Assembly: GCF_013372285.1 (NCBI RefSeq)
Contig: NZ_CP054301.1
Location: 2,721,001-2,785,000 of the forward strand
Length of the DNA stretch: 64,000 bases
Direction: 5' to 3'
DNA from: Marinomonas primoryensis
GTDB taxonomy: Bacteria; Pseudomonadota; Gammaproteobacteria; Pseudomonadales; Marinomonadaceae
The notes below the pieces were generated by a model, which searched no databases, was not told where the DNA came from, and was given only the letters and a program-made list of their open reading frames with translations. Both the position numbers and the translations under genes were made by a program. This document shows positions 26,140-39,422 of this stretch, piece by piece. Position 1 is the stretch's first letter. Every line of letters starts with the position of its first letter.

Positions 26140-27756
26140 ATGCTGGATCGCATTAATGATATTAAAATACGTTACAAGTTATGGGCCATAATTGGACTTA
26201 TGTCCATGGGAACAACCGCTCTAATTTTAGTCTCACTTACGTCTTTGTTTAACAGCCATGTTGATGCTCGAAATGACCGAACACAAGATATTTTGGACAT
26301 CGTAAACTCGACGTTATCACCCATTTATAAAAAACAACAATCAGGTGAGCTGACCGCCGATCAAGCAAAAAATCAGGCCATTACGCTTTTATCTGCATTC
26401 AAGTATGGCAATAAACAAAGCCTTTGGATCATCAATAAAAACAATCTTACTTTAATCAATGCCCCAATAACCTATAAAAACAATCACACTCCTGCTTCTC
26501 TTACTGAAGCACTCAAAAATCCACAAGCATCATCAGTAGAAAAGAATTATCAGGCGATAACATTTGAGTATCAGGGTAACGATGGCACAGCACACCGGAT
26601 GCTCGCCAGCGCATATACTTTTACGCCATGGAATATCACCATCATTGCCACCGCATCCATGGATGCGGTCATGAGCTTTTTCTTAAACGCATTAGTCGAT
26701 TATGCCATTTTAGTGAGCGTATTAACCGTCTTAGTCGGAGGTACGGCACTCTATATTATTCATTTGGTCACCAGCCGCGTGACGTCGCTGTGCAAAACCA
26801 TGACATCGGTGCAACACTCCGGAGATCTAACACAACGTGTCGAGTTTACTGGCCAAGATGAAATGGGCGAAATGTCGCGCGCCTTTAATAGCATGATGAA
26901 CGACTTTCAATCCATCGTGCGCAATGTCGGCCACTCCAGTGAGACCCTAGATAATATCGTCGGTCAGACCAATAGATCGACCCAAAAAACAGCGCAAGGT
27001 GTGAGTAAACAATTATCCAATACGGAAAAAGCCACTGATCTGATGCAAAGTGTGATGACCTCCGTTGAAGACACGCTCGCCATTGCCGAGCAAGCAAACC
27101 ATACGACACAAGAACTTGACCAGCATTCCAAACAGGGTCTTGGTGTCATGAACAAAGCCAACCAAGACATACAACAACTGTCTATTGAAGTTGGAGACGC
27201 GGCAATACAGATTCAAAAATTACGCGAAGCGGTCACACACATTAACGAACGATTAGGCATCATTGCAGAAGTGGCAGACCAGACCAACTTACTCGCGCTC
27301 AATGCCGCCATTGAAGCCGCTCGAGCGGGTGAACAAGGCAGAGGATTTGCCGTTGTGGCGGACGAAGTTCGTCATCTTGCCCAACGTTCGCAATTAGCGG
27401 CAACTGAAATTGGCGGATTAATCGATCAATTGACACAACAAACACTGACCACAGTGGACGTCATGGAGACAGCCCGAAACACGGCTAATCAAGGTGCGGA
27501 GCAGACTTCTCAAGCGGGTCAGGCATTTACTGAGATTGCCAATGGCGTGCTGTCCATTTCCAAACTGAACAGTAATATTAGCCAAGCGGCTGAGCGTCAA
27601 TATGAGTCTTCAAAAACGGTTCACCAAACATTGGAAAGCATCGCCAATGTTTGTGAAGATACCAACCATAATTCTACTGATATTCAAACGTCCGTGAACA
27701 ATTTACAAGAATGCGCCAGTCAATTACGCCAATTGGTGCATCAGTTTAGTACCTAA
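26140..27756 (+). CDS. Methyl-accepting chemotaxis protein with periplasmic Cache-like sensor
   Basis: The 538-residue receptor has a TM helix (about 14-35), a periplasmic domain of about 150 residues that resembles a single Cache (sCache_2) fold, with the [22 protein letters not shown] region, a second TM (about 185-210), a HAMP domain ([12 protein letters not shown] with [14 protein letters not shown]) and a cytoplasmic signalling coiled coil. The hairpin tip is [35 protein letters not shown]. It signals to CheA/CheW; the ligand is unknown, small carboxylates being common for this class. GGAG precedes the ATG. It is a single gene. Confidence 0.95.
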
Positions 27757-27867
27757 TCAAAAAGGGATAGCGCTCTCAAAAAAACACAACCTCTTACCGT
27801 ATTTCTACTAATGCTACTTTCATTTAATCTACAAAATTCATGTTAAGTGCACCTTAATCGTCTACTT

Positions 27868-27901
27868 ATGCTCTTATTCTGTGCATAAAAGAGCATTTTT
27901 T
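27868..27901 (+). terminator. Intrinsic terminator downstream of the chemoreceptor
   Basis: ATGCTCTT pairs with AAGAGCAT around a 13-nt loop and runs into TTTTT. It lies 110 bp after the chemoreceptor stop, in the 327-bp spacer 27757-28083. The rest of that spacer holds a promoter candidate and a small hairpin GACCGA-CAAC-TCGGTC (28035-28050) in the leader of the next gene. Confidence 0.65.
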
Positions 27902-27962
27902 AGAAAATAATGTCCTTTCCAAAAATTAAGTGAAAAAGAAACAATTTTACTACTTTAACTTC

Positions 27963-27992
27963 TTGGTGAGTCCCATTAAGTTTGGGTATAGT
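27963..27992 (+). promoter_or_regulatory. Candidate sigma-70 promoter for the glycogen operon
   Basis: TTGGTG (27963-27968) and TATAGT (27987-27992) are separated by 18 bp, about 90 bp before the first gene of the cluster. It is a reasonable but unproven match to -35 and -10 elements. Confidence 0.4.
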
Positions 27993-28083
27993 GGTTTTAA
28001 CTCAATTCACCTCTATCGACTAAATTTGGTCTAAGACCGACAACTCGGTCCTACAAACCGTTACGTTTTCTAAAGGATCAAAC

Positions 28084-31000
28084 ATGGCATCTGATACACA
28101 AGATAAGCTAGATTCTCTTTATCAACATATACAGGCGGTTATTTTATCCCGCCAGCACCCAGTGACAGGGCTTTTCCCTGCCAGCACCAGCATCAATAAT
28201 CACGGTAATTACACCGATGCTTGGGTTCGAGACAATGTCTACAGTATACAAGCCGTATGGGCATTACATTTGGCCTATAAACGTGCCTCAAATCCTCAAA
28301 AGCGCGCTAATGAACTTGAGTTTACCTGTATCAAAATGATGCGCGGGCTGCTATTTGCCATGATGCGACAATCCCACAAAGTCGAAGCATTCAAACACAG
28401 CTTGGACCCAAAAGACGCGCTGCATGCAAAATACGATACTAAAACAGGCTTAGAAGCCGTCGCAGATGACGCATGGGGACATTTGCAAATCGATGCCACC
28501 AGCTTTTATCTGTTGATGCTGGCGCAAATGACCAAAGCGGGCAGCAAACTCATCTTTTCTCGTGATGAATTTAATTTTATCCAAAATCTTATTTATTACA
28601 TTTCTCGTACTTATCGCACGCCAGATTACGGTATTTGGGAACGAGGCAATAAGGTTAACAATGGTAAAGCCGAAATAAACGCCAGTTCTGTTGGCATGGC
28701 AAAAGCCGCGATGGAAGGCATGGACGGCTTAAACCTATTTGGCGAAGATGGTCCAGAATGGGCCGTCGTTCACTCCTTTGCTGATGCGGTTGCCCGCGCA
28801 GGCTCGGTACTACAATCCTTGTTACCCAAAGAATCTCGTTCTAAAGAAGTCGACAGTGCTGTCCTGAGTATCATTGGCTTTCCGGCATTTGCCGTAAATG
28901 ATGAAAAGTTAACCCGACGCACACGCAAGGAAATCATCAGTAAGTTAGGCGGTGAATACGGCTGTAAGCGTTTTTTATTAGATGGTCACCAGTCTGAACT
29001 CGAAGACCAAAGCCGAATTTATTATGAATACGATGAGCTCATTAACTTCGAGCACATTGAGTCCGAATGGCCGCTTTTCTTCACCTACCTTTATATTGAC
29101 CGTTTGTTTGCCAGAGACTGGGAAAGTGCCAATTATTATCGCCATAAATTAGAATCGTTAATGGTCGAAAAAGACGGTCAGATGCTCTTGCCGGAATTGT
29201 ATTATGTTCCACAAGAAAATATTTTAGCCGAGAAAGAAAACCCAGGATCACAAAAACGTGTGCCCAATGACAATCTGCCATTGGTCTGGGCGCAAAGTCT
29301 GTATTTGGTTGGTAAAATGCTCGATGAAGAGCTCATAAAAACTGACGACCTTGACCCCCTCGGTTTGCATCGCATTCAGCACAGGCCAAACAAAGTGACC
29401 ACGTCCATGGTTATTTTGGCGCAAAACGATAAGGTAAAACAAAAACTACTAGACGCGGGTTGTTTATGCCAAACCCTTGAAGACATCGCGCCGCTGAAAG
29501 CCATTAGTGCGGGTCAACTGGTGGAGACTTACCGCCACCTTGGCGCCTCTGAAACATTAGGTCTTACAGGTCGACCTAATCGCGCGTTAAACAGCTTAGC
29601 GACGTCTCAGGCATTTAGTATTAACGACGAAAGTTTTTTGTGCTTGTCTTGGATTCAGAACGAAGACAAAGATTACCGAAAAATTGACCCAGCACTCTTT
29701 CAAGCCCACATACGTAATGAATTAAAAACCATCGCCGATCATTGGTATTATCAGGCCAATGCGGTTTTCAGCATACTCATCGATGAAGCCATGAGTGACA
29801 TGAAAGGCAGCGATGAACTATTTGAATTTATTCGATTATTGCAAAAACGTGAGCACGAAGAGTTTCTCGTTATTCCTCAGTCTGCGAAAAATGCATTCAA
29901 GTCAGGTAACCGTCGCGCCATTATTATCAATACGCTCGACCATAATCAACTCGAAGTGAACCTTCCTGTCCATGATGCTCCTTGGCCTTTATCTGCAGAA
30001 CCAAAAGCTTACGACGCTGCCGCCATAAAAAATCTCGATACTGATAATTTACTGGCTCGACTCAACGAGCAGCCAGACCTAAATGAAGCGATTGATTGTT
30101 TAATGGAGCTGGGGACACGTCGAGCACTGATGAACACAATTCCAAACTCTATGCCGGCGATTACCGCTTATAAAGTGTTAAACAGCGTTTATTATCAAGC
30201 GCTATTGTTGGAAAATTGGCATTGTGCAAGACAGCTGTACTCTTTGATATTGAAGCCCTCGACTGATCTTGCGACCTACATTGCCGACATCACGGTTCGC
30301 CAACGCTTGCTCGTCATTGGCGAAACGCCAGAGACAGAAGTCGATATAAGCACGCCATTAGATCAAGACGTCATCTTAGAAATGCTAAGGAGCGTGTCTT
30401 CATCACCTATTGGATTGGTGATTTGTCATGAGCTCATTGCCATTGTTGGCACATTCATAAAAGTTCACCCAGAGTTTTTCTCAGGGGTGCGTACGATTAG
30501 AATTCATAACCTTGCTTTACTCTGCGCTCGACAATTTAATCCTGATGAAAACGCACCCGTATTTGACACATTATCCAAAGTATCACCAAGCGAGCTTTAC
30601 GAAGCACTCAAACAAGTGTTACAACAAAAGCACGATGAATTTGCTCACGTGGCAAATAATATGCGCTATCACCACAGCACGGATGCTCAAAGCAAAATGA
30701 AAGATGTAGACTGGTTTGATTGGCGTGCCGAGCAAGGCATGATAACAAAACTGCCTGAGTCCATGTTATTGCAGCTCTGGGAAAGCTTGAGTCATGCAAA
30801 TACCATCGTGTTCGGTGATGTACAAAGTAATACCGCACTCGATTGTAAACGCGCACTCAGTTCAATGACGCCTGGCGAAGACACTTTTGCGCTCTTAATC
30901 GAGCTATTAACGTCAGACATCCACCCTAGCTGGTATAAAAGTCTTATTTTTGAAGGCTTGTATGCCTTTATTCAGTTTTGCCAACAACATAAAACTTGCA

Positions 31001-31209
31001 AATTTGATCAAGAAATCAATTTGCCGGTCTTAGTTTCTCAGGCCGCGCTAGATCACGCGAAGCAGCACCAAGTAGAACACCCAGAAGACAGCAGAGCTGA
31101 GGCTGCACTAGACGAATTTGCACAAATAACACCAAATAAAGTCAACCAATATTTGCGTTGGGCAGTGAGCAAACTCCACAGTCACCAGCACCAACACTCA
31201 TCGAGTTAA
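28084..31209 (+). CDS. Bacterial phosphorylase kinase alpha/beta-like protein (GH15-related)
   Basis: The 1041-residue protein begins with a glucoamylase-like (GH15) alpha/alpha-barrel: NYTDAWVRDNVYSIQAVWAL, DDAWGHLQIDATSFYL, and YGIWERGNK (Trp185-Glu186) followed by INASSVGMAKAAM. From memory it tracks animal phosphorylase kinase alpha/beta well beyond the barrel: LLPKESRSKEVDSAVL, GGEYGCKRFLLDGHQSELED, ELYYVPQENILAEKENPGSQ, LGLTGRPNRALNSL, and near the C-terminus a LPESMLLQLWESL...MTPGED segment. In animals these subunits regulate the kinase that activates glycogen phosphorylase. Here glgB starts 27 bp downstream, so a glycogen role is very likely; whether it is an enzyme or a regulator is open. 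GGA lies before the ATG. Confidence 0.88.
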   Translation: MASDTQDKLDSLYQHIQAVILSRQHPVTGLFPASTSINNHGNYTDAWVRDNVYSIQAVWALHLAYKRASNPQKRANELEFTCIKMMRGLLFAMMRQSHKVEAFKHSLDPKDALHAKYDTKTGLEAVADDAWGHLQIDATSFYLLMLAQMTKAGSKLIFSRDEFNFIQNLIYYISRTYRTPDYGIWERGNKVNNGKAEINASSVGMAKAAMEGMDGLNLFGEDGPEWAVVHSFADAVARAGSVLQSLLPKESRSKEVDSAVLSIIGFPAFAVNDEKLTRRTRKEIISKLGGEYGCKRFLLDGHQSELEDQSRIYYEYDELINFEHIESEWPLFFTYLYIDRLFARDWESANYYRHKLESLMVEKDGQMLLPELYYVPQENILAEKENPGSQKRVPNDNLPLVWAQSLYLVGKMLDEELIKTDDLDPLGLHRIQHRPNKVTTSMVILAQNDKVKQKLLDAGCLCQTLEDIAPLKAISAGQLVETYRHLGASETLGLTGRPNRALNSLATSQAFSINDESFLCLSWIQNEDKDYRKIDPALFQAHIRNELKTIADHWYYQANAVFSILIDEAMSDMKGSDELFEFIRLLQKREHEEFLVIPQSAKNAFKSGNRRAIIINTLDHNQLEVNLPVHDAPWPLSAEPKAYDAAAIKNLDTDNLLARLNEQPDLNEAIDCLMELGTRRALMNTIPNSMPAITAYKVLNSVYYQALLLENWHCARQLYSLILKPSTDLATYIADITVRQRLLVIGETPETEVDISTPLDQDVILEMLRSVSSSPIGLVICHELIAIVGTFIKVHPEFFSGVRTIRIHNLALLCARQFNPDENAPVFDTLSKVSPSELYEALKQVLQQKHDEFAHVANNMRYHHSTDAQSKMKDVDWFDWRAEQGMITKLPESMLLQLWESLSHANTIVFGDVQSNTALDCKRALSSMTPGEDTFALLIELLTSDIHPSWYKSLIFEGLYAFIQFCQQHKTCKFDQEINLPVLVSQAALDHAKQHQVEHPEDSRAEAALDEFAQITPNKVNQYLRWAVSKLHSHQHQHSSS

Positions 31210-31236
31210 CACACTCACTCTATGCTGGAGAAGTGA

Positions 31237-33432
31237 ATGGATTTAATAAAAAATGCCTTAATTAACGATGTGATGAACACACATTGCTCAGACCCGTTTG
31301 GCTGTTTAGGGCTACAGGAGTCTTCGTCTAAAATAGGTTTTTCGCTTATTGTTTGGCAACCGGAAGCAACGTCAATTCGAGTATTGGAAATAGAGACAGA
31401 TACGGTGTTGGCTCAAATGCACCAAGCCGATAACAAAGGCTTATTTTATGCCGAATGGCCAAAGGAAAAAGTACGTTTTCACTATCGCCTTGAGATTACT
31501 TACCAAGACAACAGCACTCATACGATAGTCGACCCATACCAATTTCCTAACACGACCTTTATAGACCCTGACCACCATCAAGCAAGCTTATACAAAAGCC
31601 AAGGGGCCATTCGCGCCAGTGCCGAGATCAATGACCAACTAACGATTCAAGGCACACGCTTTGCCGTTTACGCCCCTGCGGCGCGTTCTATTTCCGTCGT
31701 GGGTGATTTCAACAGCTGGGATGGTCGAACTCATCCTATGTCGAGTAACGGAGACGGCATCTGGCGATTGTTTATTCCCGATATTAATCATGGCGCTCGG
31801 TACAAGTTTGAAATCCGTTCTAAAACTGGTGAAATCCTCCCTCATCGCAGTGATCCCTATGCTCAGCGTATTGAACAATTCCCTTCTTTTTCGAGCGTAA
31901 CCTGCTTTGATAATAAGCACCAATGGCAAGATGATGCTTGGGTCAACCGCCCTATTGAAGACCTCTACGAAAAGCCTATGTGTGTGTACGAATTGCATCT
32001 AGGATCATGGCGTCGCAAGGAAGATAACCAACCTCTCACGTATCTTGAAATCAAAGATCAGCTTGTGCCCTACATTCAAGAAATGGGCTACACACACGTC
32101 GAACTATTGCCGATTACCGAATACCCATTCGATGGCTCATGGGGCTATCAGCCGGTTGGTTTGTACGCGGTAACGTCACGATTTGGTACGCCTGAAGACT
32201 TTAAAGTGCTGGTAGACGCACTGCATCAAGCTAACATCGGTGTCATTATGGATTGGGTTCCTGCACACTTTCCTGCGGACAGTCACGGTTTGGCCAATTT
32301 TGATGGCTCAAAACAATACGAGTATCCAGATCCTAAGAAAGGCTGGCACCCTGAATGGAATTCGCTAATTTACGACTTCGGCAAAGAGCATGTTGTTAAT
32401 TATCTTATTAGTAACGCGGTTTATTGGCTGGAAGAATTTCATATCGACGGCTTACGTGTCGATGCCGTTGCCTCTATGTTGTATTTGGATTACTCACGGG
32501 AAGATGGCGAATGGATTCCCAACAAAGACGGAGGCAATCATAACTACGAAGCCATTGATTTCTTACGTCGTTTAAATGAGACCGTTTATTTAAACCACCC
32601 TCACTGCTTTACTGTGGCTGAAGAATCCACCGCGTTTCCAGGCGTGTCTAAGCCCACTTACATGAATGGACTAGGCTTTGGCTTTAAATGGAATATGGGC
32701 TGGATGAATGACTCTCTAGACTACATTAAAAAAGACCCTATCTACCGACAACATCACCAAGGCGAATTAAGCTTTAGCATGGTTTATGCTTTTGATGAGC
32801 AGTTTGTTTTGCCGATTTCTCACGATGAAGTTGTCCATGGCAAAGGGTCAATGATCACTAAAATGCCAGGGGACTCTTGGCAGAAATTCGCTAATTTACG
32901 CGCCTTTTCCGCCTATATGTACTTCCATCCCGGTAAGAAACTCAATTTCATGGGTAATGAATTCGCGCAAGGCCGAGAATGGAGCCACGAACGCTCTTTG
33001 GATTGGCATTTGTTGGAAACTGATTTTCACAAATCACAGCAAGCATTATCAAAAGATCTAAACCATCTTTACCAAAATGAAGTGAGCTTGCACTTTGATC
33101 ACTCCCATCAGGGCTTTGAATGGATCAGTTACGACGATAGTGCGAACAGTATCTTAGCCTTTGCCCGAAAAGCCAAAGACCAAGATGCTCACTCAATAGC
33201 TGTCATTAACTTCACACCAACACCACATAGTAATTATCGCATTGGTGTTCCGAAAGCGGGATGTTATCAGATCATCATGAATACCGATGACAGTAGATAC
33301 ACTGGCAGCGGCTATGTTCAAGATCAAGAGTACAACACGCATGCGGTTAGTAGTCACGGTCGAGAGCACAGTATAGAACTACAAATTCCACCGCTGGCCG
33401 GTGTTTTATTAAAATGGCTAGGCGAGTCTTAG
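31237..33432 (+). CDS. glgB: 1,4-alpha-glucan branching enzyme
   Basis: It forms alpha-1,6 branches in glycogen. At 731 residues it has the full bacterial layout: an N-terminal extra beta domain (N1), CBM48 (FAVYAPAARSISVVGDFNSWDGR), the GH13_9 catalytic barrel (YTHVELLPITEYPFDGSWGYQ; VIMDWVPAHFP; nucleophile Asp in DGLRVDAVASMLYLDYSR; acid Glu in TVAEESTAFPG; SHDEVVHGKGS) and a C-terminal beta domain. GGAG lies before the ATG. It is the middle gene of the PhK-like/glgB/glgX operon; a palindrome covers its stop codon. Confidence 0.97.
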   Translation: MDLIKNALINDVMNTHCSDPFGCLGLQESSSKIGFSLIVWQPEATSIRVLEIETDTVLAQMHQADNKGLFYAEWPKEKVRFHYRLEITYQDNSTHTIVDPYQFPNTTFIDPDHHQASLYKSQGAIRASAEINDQLTIQGTRFAVYAPAARSISVVGDFNSWDGRTHPMSSNGDGIWRLFIPDINHGARYKFEIRSKTGEILPHRSDPYAQRIEQFPSFSSVTCFDNKHQWQDDAWVNRPIEDLYEKPMCVYELHLGSWRRKEDNQPLTYLEIKDQLVPYIQEMGYTHVELLPITEYPFDGSWGYQPVGLYAVTSRFGTPEDFKVLVDALHQANIGVIMDWVPAHFPADSHGLANFDGSKQYEYPDPKKGWHPEWNSLIYDFGKEHVVNYLISNAVYWLEEFHIDGLRVDAVASMLYLDYSREDGEWIPNKDGGNHNYEAIDFLRRLNETVYLNHPHCFTVAEESTAFPGVSKPTYMNGLGFGFKWNMGWMNDSLDYIKKDPIYRQHHQGELSFSMVYAFDEQFVLPISHDEVVHGKGSMITKMPGDSWQKFANLRAFSAYMYFHPGKKLNFMGNEFAQGREWSHERSLDWHLLETDFHKSQQALSKDLNHLYQNEVSLHFDHSHQGFEWISYDDSANSILAFARKAKDQDAHSIAVINFTPTPHSNYRIGVPKAGCYQIIMNTDDSRYTGSGYVQDQEYNTHAVSSHGREHSIELQIPPLAGVLLKWLGES

Positions 33433-33439
33433 ACTCGCC
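33421..33439 (+). repeat. Palindrome spanning the glgB stop codon
   Basis: GGCGAGTCTTAGACTCGCC is a perfect 9-1-9 inverted repeat that includes the glgB TAG. In RNA it can form an 8-bp stem with a TTA loop, 47 nt before the glgX start, and could modulate message stability or glgX expression. Confidence 0.6.
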
Positions 33440-33485
33440 ATCTAAGGTTTTAGTCACTTTAGATATCAACAACGCAGAGGTCTGC

Positions 33486-35513
33486 ATGAATTCACCCGCA
33501 CACCAAGTTACTACTGGCTCCACTTTTCCTCTTGGTGCCACGGTGACCAACAACGGAGTCAACTTCGCTGTTGTCTCTGAAGACGCCAGCCAACTCTATT
33601 TGTGCTTATTTGATAGCGATGGCAATGAACAGGAACCTCTGCCTTTCATCGATAAGCACAGAGGAATCTGGCACATGGAAGTCCTCGGTCTTAAAGAAAG
33701 CCAGCACTATGGCTTACGAGCCAAAGGAGAATTTAAGCCAGAACAGCAATTTGTCTTTAACGAACTCAAATTACTAATTGACCCTTACGCTAAAGACCTA
33801 AGCGAAAAGCTGGTTTGGCATGAAGACCAAACTGCTATTACAAAAGAAGGTCAGCCGCACTCGGTAGATTCGGCTTACTGTGTGCCTAAATCCATTGTTC
33901 GTACTATCCAAGCCAATGCAAATCGTCCTGCAAGAGTTAAAGTGGCGGCCACAAGTCGTGCCTTATATGAATTGCATGTAAAAGGCTTCAGCCAAAATTT
34001 GGCGATTGAAAACGAATTAAAAGGCACTTATCTAGGGGTGGTTTCTTCTGCAGGCATTGATCATCTAAAAAGCCTTAATATCACCACCATCCAGCTAATG
34101 CCCTGCTTTAGTTTTATGACAGAGCGTCATTTACAGCAATTAACACTCAATAATTATTGGGGCTACAACCCCGTTAGTTTCTTTGCACCAGAGCCTTCTT
34201 ACGCTAAAAAAGACGCGGTAATTGAGTTTCAACTAATGGTAGATGGCTTGCGAGAAGCGGGCTTTGAAGTCATTTTAGACGTGGTCTATAACCACACCGC
34301 TGAAAGCGAGTTAGACCAATCCAGCGTTTGTTTTCGCGGTTTAGACAACGCACGTTACTACCGCCATCAAGACGGACAATATCTAAATTACACGGGTTGC
34401 GGTAACTGCATTGACACATATCAACCCGCTAGCGTACGTCTTATCTGTGACAGTATGCGCTACTGGGTAGACGTCATGGGAGTGGATGGTTTTCGCTTTG
34501 ACTTAGGTGTGGACTTGGGTCGAACCGATCACGAATTCACGCCCAAAGCGCCGTTATTACAAGCCATTCTTCAAGACCCTATTTTGAGCCAAACTTGCCT
34601 AGTGATGGAGCCTTGGGATATTGGACCAAACGGCTATCAAGTTGGACAATTTCCCAAAGGGTTTCTTGAGTGCAACGACAAATACCGTGACACTATTCGT
34701 CGCTTTTGGCGCGGAGATGATGGACTTATACCTGAGTTTTCGACATGTTTTATGGGATCAAGAGATCTTTTCCATAAAGGGCATAAAAGCGCCTTAAATT
34801 CTGTCAATTACATTACCTATCACGATGGCTACACAATGAAGGATTTGGTGTCCTATCACCAACGACATAACCTAGCCAACATGGAAGAAAATCGAGATGG
34901 TCATGGTGATAATATCAGCCAAAACTTTGGTGTAGAAGGTGAAACAGACGACACAAAAATTCAACAACAACGCCTAAATCAACAACTTTGTTTTATGGCA
35001 ACCTTGTTATTAAGCCAAGGTACACCGCATATTTTAGGGGGGGATGAACTGTCTCACACCCAACAAGGCAATAATAATGCCTACTGCCAAGACAATGATA
35101 TTACGTGGCAAAATTGGCAGGAAAGCGAAGCCCGATCAGCACTGAATCATGCTATTTCAACCTTAATGGCGTTGCGTAAAACGTACCCCATTCTGGCAGA
35201 AATACACCTAGACGATGATCCACTTTATCAACATACGCCTTCAGACCATATCGAATGGTTAAATGAGCAAAGCACAGCAATGACGGCTGAAGATTGGTCG
35301 GATAACAGTCGTCACTACATTGCCTTGACGCTCGCACCAACGGACCGCTCTACACGTTTCTGGCTCGTGTTCTACAGCAGCGACGTCCCTCTAAGTGTAC
35401 CTTTTCCAATGGAAGACGCCACTATCGAGGCGCTTTATCAAACACCAGGGCTATCCATAACAGACAATTCGTTGCATTGTGCCTATCGTGGGGTCTTTAT
35501 TGGCAAAATGTAA
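33486..35513 (+). CDS. glgX: Glycogen debranching enzyme (isoamylase type)
   Basis: GlgX removes short alpha-1,6 branches left by phosphorylase. I start it at ATG 33486 (GCAGAGG upstream; family N-terminus TGSTFPLGATVTNNGVNFAV); a frame extension into glgB is untranslated. The 675 residues comprise CBM48 and a GH13_11 barrel: YELHVKGF, NNYWGYNPVSFFAPEPSYA, VILDVVYNHTAE, nucleophile Asp in DGFRFDLGVDLGR, acid Glu in LVMEPWDIGPNGYQVGQFP, and the long motif from HDGYTMKDLVSYHQRHN to NRDGHGDN. It is the last gene of the operon; no glgC, glgA or glgP follows. Confidence 0.95.
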   Translation: MNSPAHQVTTGSTFPLGATVTNNGVNFAVVSEDASQLYLCLFDSDGNEQEPLPFIDKHRGIWHMEVLGLKESQHYGLRAKGEFKPEQQFVFNELKLLIDPYAKDLSEKLVWHEDQTAITKEGQPHSVDSAYCVPKSIVRTIQANANRPARVKVAATSRALYELHVKGFSQNLAIENELKGTYLGVVSSAGIDHLKSLNITTIQLMPCFSFMTERHLQQLTLNNYWGYNPVSFFAPEPSYAKKDAVIEFQLMVDGLREAGFEVILDVVYNHTAESELDQSSVCFRGLDNARYYRHQDGQYLNYTGCGNCIDTYQPASVRLICDSMRYWVDVMGVDGFRFDLGVDLGRTDHEFTPKAPLLQAILQDPILSQTCLVMEPWDIGPNGYQVGQFPKGFLECNDKYRDTIRRFWRGDDGLIPEFSTCFMGSRDLFHKGHKSALNSVNYITYHDGYTMKDLVSYHQRHNLANMEENRDGHGDNISQNFGVEGETDDTKIQQQRLNQQLCFMATLLLSQGTPHILGGDELSHTQQGNNNAYCQDNDITWQNWQESEARSALNHAISTLMALRKTYPILAEIHLDDDPLYQHTPSDHIEWLNEQSTAMTAEDWSDNSRHYIALTLAPTDRSTRFWLVFYSSDVPLSVPFPMEDATIEALYQTPGLSITDNSLHCAYRGVFIGKM

Positions 35514-35550
35514 TTCTTCGTCTATGAATCAACCTGCGGATAAATAAACA

Positions 35551-35581
35551 ATTTAACGATGCCATTACAGCGTCGTTAAAT
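35551..35581. terminator. Convergent terminator between glgX and the ABC exporter
   Basis: ATTTAACGA and TCGTTAAAT pair around an imperfect inner stem. The hairpin covers the stop of the minus-strand ABC gene and is followed on that strand by a T-rich tract. Confidence 0.65.
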
Positions 35582-37349
35582 CATTTTGACTAAACTGTAA
35601 ATCGGCCAAGCGTTTATACAACGCACAGCTTTCAAGCAATTCAGAATGTGTGCCTTGGGCAATAATCTCACCTTGATCCAATACCATTATCCGATCTGCA
35701 TTCAAAACCGTCGCCAATCGATGCGCAATAACCAAGCTGGTTCTTCCTTTCATCAAGGGCTCAAGAGCCGCCTGAACTTTGCTTTCACTTTCAGCATCCA
35801 ACGCCCTTGTCGCCTCGTCTAGCAATAAAATGGGCGCGTCTTTCAGGATGGCGCGAGCAATGGCTATTCGCTGTCTTTGACCACCCGATAAGCGCACACC
35901 ATCTTCGCCTAATCGCGTATCATAGCCCTTGTCTAATCGAGTAATGAAGTCATGAGCATTGGCTTTTTCCGCTGCATTTTGAATAGATTCATGACTCGCA
36001 CTGCGATCTGCATAACCTAGATTATCGTAAACACTTTGATCAAACAGCACTGTCTCTTGGGGAACGAGCGCAAAGCGATGGCGTAAATCTTCCAGTGAAT
36101 ATTGTCTAATATCCTGACCGGCTAACGAAATACAACCTTGCTGAGGGTCATAAAAACGCAACAGCAATTCAAACAAGGTGGATTTACCTGCGCCTGATGG
36201 CCCGACCAAGGCCAACATTTCTCCCTGTTTAATCGAAAACGAAAGGTTTTTTAACGCGGTGTAATCCGGTCTTGATGGGTAACGAAACTCAACCTGATCA
36301 AATTTGATAATGTCTTCTCCTTGATGGAGCGCGTCCATTATTTGAGAAGGAAACACCTGTGAGCCGCTTACCACAGCACTACGTGCACTCAGTAATTCCA
36401 TAATACGTTCAGCGGCGCCTGCTGCACGCTGCAGCTCGCCCATGACTTCTGAAATAGCAGCGACAGCGCCAGCCACAATAATGGAGTAAAATAAAAAACT
36501 CGCCAAATCACCGGCACTGATTTCACCTGAAATGACATCTTTACCACCAAACCACAACATCACACCAATGCCACTCATCGACAGTAAAATAACCATCAAG
36601 GTTAGCCATGAGCGCTGCTGAATGCGTTTCACACTAACGTTAAACGCTCGATCGACTGTAGCAGAGAATCTTTGCACGTCATGCTGTTCATGGGTATAGG
36701 CTTGTACCACCTTAATGTGACGTAATGCCTGAGATAAATAACGCCCTACATTCGCGATTTCATCTTGGCTATCACGGGATAAACTGCGAACTCGGCGGCC
36801 AAAATACAACACAGGAACAATCACAAAAGGGACACAAGTAAGCAAAATTAATGTCAATTTAAAATGCATGATCAAAAGGAATAAAATTCCGCCTAACAGC
36901 ATCAAACTACTGCGCAAGGCGATCGACAAAGACGAGCCGATGACACTTTGTAATAGAGTTGTATCTGCGGTAATCCGAGATTGAATTTCACTAGGTGAAT
37001 TGTCTTCAAAAAAAGAGGGTGACAAAGTTAACAAATGCGCAAAGACAGCTTGGCGAATATCCGCGACGACACGTTCACCAATCCATGAGACCAAATAAAA
37101 TCGACAAAAACTTCCAATGCCTAATAAAAAGACCAACGCGGTAAAAATCATCAACGCATGAGTCAAACCCGCTTCCGAACCAGAAGCCAACCCTTGATCT
37201 ATTAAGAGCTGCACGCCCTTTCCCAAGCTAAGCATTGTGCCTGCGGTTACCACCAAAGCGATTAAGGCAAACACCATATGCCGTCGATAAGGTCGTAAAA
37301 AAGGTAAGAAGGTTTTTATTCCATTTTCGACATTTAACGGCTTATTCAT
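35565..37349 (-). CDS. MsbA-like ABC exporter (fused permease and ATPase)
   Basis: The 594-residue half-transporter has six membrane helices (residues about 15-310) and a nucleotide-binding domain (about 345-585) with Walker A GPSGAGKST, Q-loop VPQETVLF, signature LSGGQRQRIAIARAIL, Walker B ILLLDEA and switch His in VIAHRLATV. The D-loop reads RALDAE instead of the usual SALDAE. It would act as a homodimer exporting lipid, drug or peptide; the MsbA-related subgroup has no settled substrate. The gene stands alone. Confidence 0.93.
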   Translation of the reverse strand: MNKPLNVENGIKTFLPFLRPYRRHMVFALIALVVTAGTMLSLGKGVQLLIDQGLASGSEAGLTHALMIFTALVFLLGIGSFCRFYLVSWIGERVVADIRQAVFAHLLTLSPSFFEDNSPSEIQSRITADTTLLQSVIGSSLSIALRSSLMLLGGILFLLIMHFKLTLILLTCVPFVIVPVLYFGRRVRSLSRDSQDEIANVGRYLSQALRHIKVVQAYTHEQHDVQRFSATVDRAFNVSVKRIQQRSWLTLMVILLSMSGIGVMLWFGGKDVISGEISAGDLASFLFYSIIVAGAVAAISEVMGELQRAAGAAERIMELLSARSAVVSGSQVFPSQIMDALHQGEDIIKFDQVEFRYPSRPDYTALKNLSFSIKQGEMLALVGPSGAGKSTLFELLLRFYDPQQGCISLAGQDIRQYSLEDLRHRFALVPQETVLFDQSVYDNLGYADRSASHESIQNAAEKANAHDFITRLDKGYDTRLGEDGVRLSGGQRQRIAIARAILKDAPILLLDEATRALDAESESKVQAALEPLMKGRTSLVIAHRLATVLNADRIMVLDQGEIIAQGTHSELLESCALYKRLADLQFSQNDLTTL

Positions 37350-37457: not shown

Positions 37458-39020
37458 TCACTCTTTAGATTTGAATCCCATCCGGAAGCCGCCCCAATGC
37501 TGACCGTTAACATAAATAGGGACTGAAAGATCATGAAGGATTTCACCCGTATCACGCTTATAGGTTTGCAGTAAAAATGTATCGGTATGCGCGCCGCAAC
37601 GACTGCCTGTTGGATCATTGAAAATTCGCTTAGTGCGATTGTTTATTAAGTCTTTTTCATAATCGCCACTTATCGGCTGACTGAATTTTTTATTGTGTGT
37701 AGGAAAGTAGCCATTCACGTCAACTGCGCCCGCAAACATGACTTCTGCATGCTTGTCTAATACCGCTTCTTGAATCGCAGGAAAAGTGCGATCACTAAAC
37801 GCATCGTACAATGTGCTGTATTTTTGTGGATTCGTTTGCTTAATCGGCTGATAGTCCCTAGAAAAAACCGCGTGTTGAGTCAACTCACCTTTGGTAATGG
37901 CTTCTTCAAACACATGACCAATCTCTTGCGCTGCAATTTTAGCGTCATTAAGCAATGCCGAGAAAAATAATGAAGGGTCTACTTTATCCAATTCTCTAAA
38001 AACCACTTCAGCACCATTACTCAAGCCGGCAGCTTCTTGTGACAACCGATCACTGCGCTGAGAAATTTCCCGTAGAGAGTCACTGATTCGAGAGATAGAC
38101 CCACCAATTTGCGTGCTGGTTGCCCCCAACTCTTCTCCTGTACTTTCTACTTCAGACAACACTGCCGACGCATTTTGCACTTCTTCTGTTAAAGAAATAA
38201 AGCGCTGTGTTTCCCCTAACAGCGTAATAGAAAGGGATTCTGTTAAGTCTTTTAAAGAGGACATTTCATGGTTGGTTAACTCACTATTATGGCGAACATC
38301 CGTGAGTAACCGCGAAATTTGCTCCGACGCATCAGCACTCTTGCCCGCTAAGGCTCGTACCTCATCTGCAACCACGGCAAAACCTCGGCCTTGCTCCCCA
38401 GCTCGCGCCGCTTCTATTGCGGCGTTTAATGCCAGCAAGTTGGTTTGTTCGGACACCGCTTTGATGACTAACGTAATGCGGTCTATGTCATCCGCACTTT
38501 TCGTCAACAAAGCCAGTTGTTCACTGGCTGTTTGCACTTTGGTTGTGAGCTCACTAATTTTCTCAGCGCTTTGAGACAGCGCACTTTGCGCCGTGCGACT
38601 TGATTCTGCGGTGTCACTCATCGTGTGGGCTAAATGACCCAAGTTTTTTGAAAGCGTGAGCCCTGAAGCAGACAGTATTTCTACCGCTTGCTGAATTTGC
38701 TCACTGTCATCACGGGTTAAATGTATGTCTTTACTTAACGTATCAACAAAGTGAGAAACTTCTGCCGCCCCCATCGCCATTCTGGACGTTGCGTGAGTCA
38801 CTGTTTTGCTCACCTCAGAAAATGACAATGATTGATTATCAACAGAATTGGGCTCTAGACCTCTCTGAAGAGCTGTTTTACGTACTCGTTTTGATAACAT
38901 CAAACAAGCACATAAAAGAAAGCCAGCAAAAGAATAAGACAATGGCATCGAGTCTTGTGTATAACCCAATGTAAAAAGAACAAGAAGCCCTAAAACACCA
39001 AACAACTGGAAATAAAACAT
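37458..39020 (-). CDS. Chemoreceptor with N-terminal membrane anchor and C-terminal cytosolic sensor domain
   Basis: The ATG at 39020 has AAGGG 7 nt upstream. The 520-residue protein has two close TM helices (about 5-45), no periplasmic domain and no HAMP, then a signalling coiled coil with tip [35 protein letters not shown]. The last 160 residues, after [13 protein letters not shown], contain [20 protein letters not shown] and [19 protein letters not shown], which look like a Cache-type ligand domain placed in the cytosol. This suggests sensing of an internal metabolite or redox/energy state. It is a single gene. Confidence 0.9.
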
Positions 39021-39422
39021 TACCATACCCTTTTTATAATTATTATTTTCTAGTGTTTAACGATGCCAATAGAAGGTCAATGTAAAACGGAATACCTACG
39101 ACTAAAGTCTTACAGTTAAACGTAGCCACTGCATAAAGTGCACTTATCCCATCCTATTCCTTAGCCTAATTTTTCAGAGATTCTATCAAGGCCTCGCTAT
39201 TACACTTTTGATCATAGCAGTAAAAATAAAACATTAAATATGCTCTATTCGCTCTATAGAAAACCTTAGAATGAAACACACCTGTAAATTCAAATTCATG
39301 GCATAAAAAGCAGAGCTTTTCGGCAAAATACCGACTAAAATGAAAATTGTGCTCACGAAGCACTACTAAAACAATAATACCATCGCGCACAACCTGCCGA
39401 TGATCTCATTGAGGATTAAACT
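39021..39422. other. Intergenic region between chemoreceptor and dioxygenase
   Basis: About 400 bases without a convincing gene. A 74-codon minus-strand frame (39166-39390) has an aromatic-rich composition unlike its neighbours and I do not accept it as a gene. AAGTGCACTT (39136-39145) is a perfect 10-bp palindrome that may be a regulator site for either divergent gene. Confidence 0.5.

Follow-up and report, generated by a model that had tools for sequence, protein, structure and literature searches.

A protein with the full-length architecture of the phosphorylase kinase alpha and beta subunits, encoded beside glgB and glgX in Marinomonas primoryensis, is a candidate glucoamylase

Phosphorylase kinase (PhK) had a central place when regulation by phosphorylation was discovered, and glucoamylase-like domains were reportedly recognized in its alpha and beta subunits by Pallen in 2003. 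In human PhK alpha the catalytic pair of glycoside hydrolase family 15 (GH15) corresponds to Glu185 and Glu371, domain D5 holds the gamma subunit, and both alpha and beta are farnesylated at a CaaX motif; the significance of the glucoamylase-like domains was stated to require further investigation (PMC10978961). In Sulfolobus acidocaldarius, gaa is co-transcribed in a glgC-gaa-glgX operon, and its deletion resulted in 21.2 times the glycogen in stationary phase, whilst deletion of glgP caused a modest change (PMC8158581; both papers are cited from part of their text). The present work concerns a stretch of 64,000 nucleotides from the chromosome of Marinomonas primoryensis (NZ_CP054301.1, positions 2,721,001 to 2,785,000; hereafter the window) and a gene within it, phkL, whose product PhKL resembles PhK alpha and beta from end to end and is encoded directly ahead of a branching and a debranching enzyme. 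PhKL is probably a glucoamylase, an exo-alpha-glucosidase of the GH15 type, that acts in the cytoplasm and is built on the five-domain scaffold of PhK alpha and beta; it would do the job of glycogen phosphorylase (GlgP) in Marinomonas strains that lack a phosphorylase.

The features of phkL within the window were as follows.

28084..31209, + strand: phkL, encoding a 1041-aa PhK alpha/beta-like GH15 protein with D1-D5 architecture (ORF with ATG start; PF00723 and PF19292, phmmer, profile and predicted fold)
28084..29340, + strand: D1, glucoamylase-like catalytic domain, approximately residues 1-419 of PhKL (VIA-align rows to the 5z3 and 7c2 glycosidases)
28639..28641, + strand: codon of E186 (GIWERGNK), predicted GH15 catalytic acid, aligned with human PhK alpha Glu185
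29194..29196, + strand: codon of E371 (LLPELYYV), predicted GH15 catalytic base, aligned with human PhK alpha Glu371
30559..31194, + strand: KPBB_C region, residues 826-1037, which contains the D5 fold that binds gamma in PhK alpha (PF19292 and model)

Two Pfam domains were detected in PhKL, namely PF00723 (GH15; residues 8-523, 233 bits against a cut-off of 22) and PF19292 ('Phosphorylase b kinase C-terminal domain'; residues 826-1037, 99.8 bits against a cut-off of 27), and with both over their cut-offs the protein has the GH15 plus KPBB_C architecture of the PhK alpha/beta superfamily; no NCBIfam model reached its cut-off. When PhKL was compared by phmmer with all Protein Data Bank (PDB) chains, only two distinct sequences matched at E up to 1, PhK alpha (543.6 bits) and PhK beta (466.1 bits), and none of the GH15 glucoamylases in the PDB did so. 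A profile built from 32 bacterial sequences, PhKL being the first, matched PhK alpha with 1015.8 bits, collinearly at 8-618 and 746-1168, and PhK beta with 833.4 bits, collinearly at 47-920 and 921-1076. The C-terminal MTPGE block is present in PhKL and aligns with PhK alpha; the stretch was non-significant on its own in the single-sequence phmmer search (domain i-E-value 250) and lies within the significant stretches of the profile.

The predicted fold agreed with these matches. An AlphaFold model of PhKL, obtained from a 32-row alignment (pLDDT 82.4, pTM 0.82), was superposed by VIA-align on PhK alpha with Z 43.8 (935 residues, rmsd 3.4 A) and on PhK beta with Z 39.6, and Foldseek gave TM values of 0.80-0.87 for eight PhK chains. 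Residues 874-1039 of the model matched residues 1051-1218 of 8xyb_A, an entry with the alpha sequence (Z 17.8, 160 aligned). Among the best 50 VIA-align rows, other glycosidases matched in the first half, mainly at residues 1-419 (Z 18-24), and most of the C-terminal half was compared there with PhK alone. Because the PF19292, profile and fold matches extend beyond the GH15 barrel, the C-terminal half is homologous to PhK too, and the homology is full-length. An earlier note, made from the letters of the window and a list of its ORFs, had already recognized in this gene a GH15 barrel, PhK alpha/beta-like segments over nearly the whole length and an MTPGE-type C-terminal region; all three were confirmed, and the alignment was not limited to the barrel; such a limitation was what the note had named as fatal to its claim. 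Homology of the C-terminal domain is already implicit in databases, in the name of PF19292 and in its matches to bacteria, including Synechococcus elongatus.

In the phmmer alignment, Glu185 and Glu371 of human PhK alpha corresponded to E186 and E371 of PhKL. Both positions were Glu in 99 of 99 aligned rows (PhKL and 98 relatives, comprising 96 distinct sequences, with L051 and L054 omitted), and W47, R49, D50, W185 and W402 were likewise constant; the E186 motif was one of the two patterns used to retrieve 80 of these relatives, and E371 lay outside both patterns. In PhK beta the second catalytic Glu is replaced by Lys and the AWVRDN motif is missing. The CaaX farnesylation motif of the PhK subunits was sought as a Cys at position -4, which was found in none of the 99 sequences.

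That the regulatory architecture is retained in full, down to the D5 fold to which gamma binds in PhK alpha, could also mean that PhKL lacks catalysis and serves as a glucan sensor or scaffold, whose GH15 pocket would bind chain ends and steer GlgB and GlgX as PhK alpha and beta steer the kinase, and the human homologue, with an intact site, indeed showed no activity. Such a role is nevertheless unlikely: the catalytic pair is invariant in the 99 aligned rows, whereas PhK beta has lost the second Glu, the linkage to glucokinase genes described below in three arrangements better fits a glucose-releasing enzyme, and those Marinomonas that make glycogen but show no phosphorylase match still require an exo-acting step.

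Downstream of phkL, the cluster comprised the following features.

31237..33432, + strand: glgB, 1,4-alpha-glucan branching enzyme (NCBIfam PRK05402.1, 944.9 bits against a cut-off of 741)
33414..35513, + strand (longest ORF; probable start 33486): glgX, glycogen debranching enzyme (TIGR02100 glgX_debranch, 755.3 bits against a cut-off of 640.9)
35551..35581, + strand: terminator-like hairpin with a 12-bp stem, between glgX and a convergent ABC transporter gene

The order of the three genes and the gap of 27 bp between the phkL stop and the glgB start, both remarked in the earlier note, were borne out by the ORF coordinates and by the NCBIfam cut-offs passed; the suggestion in that note that the protein acts on branch structure found no specific support beyond gene order. 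The host genome (G000; one contig of 4,068,722 bp, listed as 100% complete) possesses one glucokinase gene and one GH15 gene. The window indeed contains no glgP, glgC or glgA, as the earlier note had stated; glgA (C1:2986167-2987618) and glgC (C1:2984915-2986045) were found over the cut-off elsewhere in the chromosome, and no match to the glycogen phosphorylase family PF00343 was obtained in the whole host genome (E up to 1e-3).

A role for PhKL as a phosphorylase regulator was rejected for this host and is very unlikely there, since no phosphorylase was found in it to regulate. The earlier note had left the choice between an ancestral glycogen-binding enzyme and a regulator, and it is the enzyme that gains from the catalytic pair, the neighbouring genes and the lack of a PF00343 match. 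That PhKL is a regulatory subunit in a phosphorylase-kinase-like complex of bacteria would account for the full-length PhK homology, and kinase genes adjoin the PhKL gene in two relatives, Lentisphaera marina (L120) and L035. A tblastn search with one kinase query, however, detected no partner kinase (gamma) in the window, the rest of the host genome not having been searched for kinases, and gave matches in four of 100 loci, in two of which they adjoin PhKL; the best PDB matches of the L120 kinase were PknB and other kinases, with PhK gamma absent among the best 60 of 2289, and the host genome yielded no phosphorylase match that could represent the substrate. We consider a complex of this kind highly improbable.

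The glucoamylase assignment was examined against the distribution of glycogen genes. In 30 Marinomonas genomes, glgA was found over the cut-off in 28, glgC in 29 and PhKL in 29, and the sole genome without PhKL (G562) was also without glgA and glgC over the cut-off. PF00343 matches were present in 12 of these genomes (two of them weak) and in none of the other 18, which include the host. The weak matches are divergent (G503:C9:196280-197770 and G523:C36:84654-86144), lie approximately 15 and 23 kb from PhKL, and are perhaps short-type alpha-glucan phosphorylases. In one genome, G830, PhKL and glgA are in pieces, possibly through base-calling errors. Across 293 genomes of the order, glgA was present in 20 of the 23 genomes with PhKL versus 54 of the 270 without it, and outside the genus in eight of 11 versus 54 of 269.

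Neighbours of PhKL were surveyed by tblastn in 80 loci from named genomes (22 from Marinomonas and 58 others) and in 16 further non-Marinomonas loci, which comprised all nine class-level matches other than the host's own and seven of the 11 non-Marinomonas matches at order level; four Marinomonas loci were also taken, and L122 and L091 duplicate the contigs of L047 and L046, respectively. The order PhKL-glgB-glgX was found in all 22 Marinomonas loci, although glgB and glgX were frame-broken in L060 (two or three frames), and directly in three of the 58 other loci, from Hahella (L078 and L080) and a Cellvibrionales metagenome-assembled genome (MAG; L079). In a further Hahella locus (L086), glgB was directly downstream of PhKL and glgX 2.5 kb further, and in three Cellvibrio loci glgB and glgA were located 5.6-8.2 kb from PhKL on the opposite strand. 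Linkage to glgB, whose restriction to this genome the earlier note had named as a refutation, thus recurs, but as a feature of one clade and not of the whole family, most non-Marinomonas relatives not being beside glgB.

Glucokinase genes were found within 2 kb of PhKL in 10 of the 58 non-Marinomonas loci (including L079, also counted above) and in nine of the 16 further loci, three of the latter having malQ directly downstream; for one gene in a genome of ~4 Mb, we estimate the chance of such proximity at ~0.1%. The glucokinase gene occurred in three arrangements relative to PhKL, downstream on the same strand, upstream on the same strand and divergent, and its identity was confirmed with Pfam in L035, L039, L041, L043, L047 and L079, as was that of MalQ in L047. 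In the MAG L079 the order was Glk-GH13-PhKL-GlgB-GlgX, whilst in Hahella L078 PhKL-GlgB-GlgX was followed by phosphoglucomutase (Pgm), with a GlgC-like nucleotidyltransferase on the other strand and then GlgA; in L047-L049, glucokinase and Entner-Doudoroff genes preceded PhKL.

These neighbours also bear on whether PhKL might be an alpha-glucan enzyme of another specificity (for example alpha-1,6-selective, trehalose- or dextran-type hydrolysis, or transglucosylation) and not a glycogen glucoamylase. The fold matches included glucodextranase and dextran dextrinase, NCBIfam gave a weak trehalase match (30.2 bits against a cut-off of 820), and in one locus (L045) a GH3 gene was two genes from PhKL; linkage to glgB, glgX, glgA, pgm and malQ, on the other hand, points to alpha-1,4/1,6-linked glycogen or maltodextrin, and we regard a different specificity as rather improbable. 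The glucoamylase assignment is favoured because of the intact GH15 pair, the glucokinase, malQ, glgB and glgX neighbours in part of the loci, and the lack of a PF00343 match in the host.

In the pathway that we propose from these sequence comparisons, glycogen would be built by GlgC, GlgA and GlgB, and its branches released by GlgX. PhKL would hydrolyse the outer chains of glycogen and/or the maltodextrins released by GlgX, from their non-reducing ends, to glucose, which glucokinase would phosphorylate for entry into central metabolism. An inverting mechanism is established for GH15, and in PhKL E186 is the predicted acid and E371 the predicted base. PhKL is probably co-expressed, and may be co-transcribed, with GlgB and GlgX in Marinomonas, whilst domains D2-D5 probably serve structural integrity, oligomerization or glucan binding. 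A cytoplasmic location appears likely; a secreted glucoamylase was rejected on inspection of the sequence, which has no hydrophobic N-terminal stretch (no signal-peptide program was run).

Several results weigh against this proposal. Doubt arises mainly from the human homologue, which proved inactive: PhK and its alpha-gamma-delta subcomplex had no detectable glucoamylase activity on maltose, isomaltose or glycogen (PMC10978961, part of the text), although human PhK alpha has both glutamates. The active-site loops of PhKL were poorly modelled, with pLDDT <50 at residues 118-123, 127-130 and 184-194. None of the tested neighbours was detected in 42 of the 58 non-Marinomonas loci, including all 21 from cyanobacteria (11 of the 42 stretches were shorter than 20 kb), nor in seven of the 16 further loci; no fixed neighbour was found in Cyanobacteriota, Alteromonadales or most Cellvibrionaceae with the tested references or among nine neighbours scanned. 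At the level of the order, three genomes with PhKL had no glgA at E up to 1e-90, and PhKL did not avoid GlgP, which was present in 11 of the 23 PhKL genomes and, among glgA-positive genomes, in eight of 20 with PhKL versus 26 of 54 without it; in this tally phosphorylases were counted at E up to 1e-60, so that divergent ones were missed, and the statistics ignore kinship. A strict replacement of GlgP by PhKL is thus unsupported, and replacement is argued here for GlgP-less genomes alone and not as a general rule. At the same threshold, 28 glgA-positive genomes of the order had neither PhKL nor a phosphorylase.

Some further details of the loci may be recorded. The glgX frame is open at 33414-33485, upstream of the likely start, which gives an apparent overlap of 19 bp with glgB. 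The ATG at 33486 is the more probable start, because GlgX of relatives begins later and AGAGG precedes this ATG, and the overlap with glgB would therefore not be required. Terminator-like hairpins were about equally common in positions 27700-35700 (11 found) and in shuffled sequences (8.0 +/- 2.9). The cluster is bordered upstream by a methyl-accepting chemotaxis gene and downstream by the convergent ABC transporter gene, which is MsbA-related. Two methyl-accepting chemotaxis genes lie nearby, at 26140-27756 (directly upstream of phkL) and 37458-39026 of the window, and of four Marinomonas loci checked, three had a relative of the former 5' of PhKL. The kinase gene of Lentisphaera marina (L120:8855-9799, +) encodes a 314-aa Hanks-type kinase (PF00069, 134.8 bits) and stands 189 bp ahead of PhKL in the same orientation, with a PPK2 gene after PhKL on the opposite strand; that of L035 (11513-14812, +) encodes a 1099-aa Pkinase-AAA_16 protein and is divergent from PhKL at a distance of 320 bp, with glucokinase following PhKL.

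In the scan of named genomes at least 580 relatives were confirmed and the best 80 of them kept, phyla further from Marinomonas being under-sampled as a result. These 80 comprised 22 Marinomonas loci, followed by Hahella, Cellvibrionaceae, Alteromonadales, Methylococcaceae, Lentisphaerota and 21 cyanobacterial loci. PF19292 was detected in 10 of 274 genomes of the class and five of 299 of the phylum (the window's own genome included in both), and protein searches found PhKL in 23 of 293 genomes of the order and, as noted, in 29 of the 30 Marinomonas genomes. A plasmid-borne PhKL was rejected, as there was no tblastn match in 72,556 plasmid records.

In a tree of 52 rows, the Marinomonas proteins shared a starred clade with those of Hahella, Cellvibrionaceae, Alteromonadaceae and Colwelliaceae, whilst human alpha and beta (joined at 92/88) had 13 cyanobacterial rows as their neighbours (96/86). 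The exact human placement is unsure, since the two eukaryotic branches are long, alpha and beta are joined at only 92/88 and the root is a midpoint. The PhKL of L050 (6261-9497) formed a very long branch (2.08 changes per column), yet its gene is located between glucokinase and malQ. Identity to human alpha in the first half was 51-56% for cyanobacterial sequences (569-589 columns), up to 53% for gammaproteobacterial sequences and 45% for PhKL, and phmmer scores against PhK alpha were 851.9 bits for Calothrix, 750.3 for L035, 716.7 for Lentisphaera and 543.6 for PhKL of the window. Recent transfer from an animal is unsupported, given the relatives in Gammaproteobacteria, Cyanobacteriota and Lentisphaerota and the position of the human pair beside cyanobacteria. 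We put forward tentatively that the regulatory subunits of animal PhK may have arisen from an enzyme of bacteria, perhaps of cyanobacteria, that released glucose from glycogen. All five of its domains, among them the D5 that later came to bind the kinase, would have predated the kinase complex, and the same enzyme may still carry glycogen breakdown in phosphorylase-less Marinomonas.

In the titles and abstract openings searched, neither bacterial PhK alpha/beta-like proteins nor their glycogen clusters were described, though Pallen (2003) and Carriere (2008) may mention relatives; the terms 'phosphorylase kinase' and 'PhK' are absent from the portion of PMC11046441 examined. What appears new here is a predicted GH15-type enzyme with a complete PhK scaffold in bacterial glycogen operons. 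PhKL bears on the origin of the two largest PhK subunits, on why alpha retains an intact glucosidase site and on the former role of the animal regulatory subunits, and a single-protein homologue in a glycogen operon makes this testable in vitro. If the proposal is true, PhKL fills the gap in glycogen breakdown in glycogen-making bacteria without phosphorylase, and a function is assigned to a widespread group whose member in the window lies below every NCBIfam cut-off.

Compared with known systems, PhKL is most like PhK alpha (PHKA; PDB 8jfk and 8z5r), with which it shares the five-domain architecture over the full length, both GH15 glutamates, the MTPGE block and, in the first half, 44.6% identity (574 aligned columns); it differs in the absence of the alpha stretch at ~618-746, in the lack of Cys at position -4 throughout the family alignment and in a host genome without a phosphorylase match. 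PhK beta (PHKB) is likewise collinear, with a fold match of Z 39.6, but has Lys in place of the second catalytic Glu and no AWVRDN motif. GH15 glucoamylases and related glycosidases (PDB 5z3a series, 1ug9 and 3eqa) share the catalytic fold, mainly of residues 1-419, and PF00723, whereas their sequences are remote (12-18% identity in structural alignment) and do not match the PhK-type C-terminal half. Gaa of Sulfolobus acidocaldarius, which is major in glycogen degradation there according to the part of PMC8158581 cited, resembles PhKL in being a glucoamylase encoded beside glgX in a glycogen operon; it is archaeal, and the likeness is one of gene context, not of sequence or domain structure.

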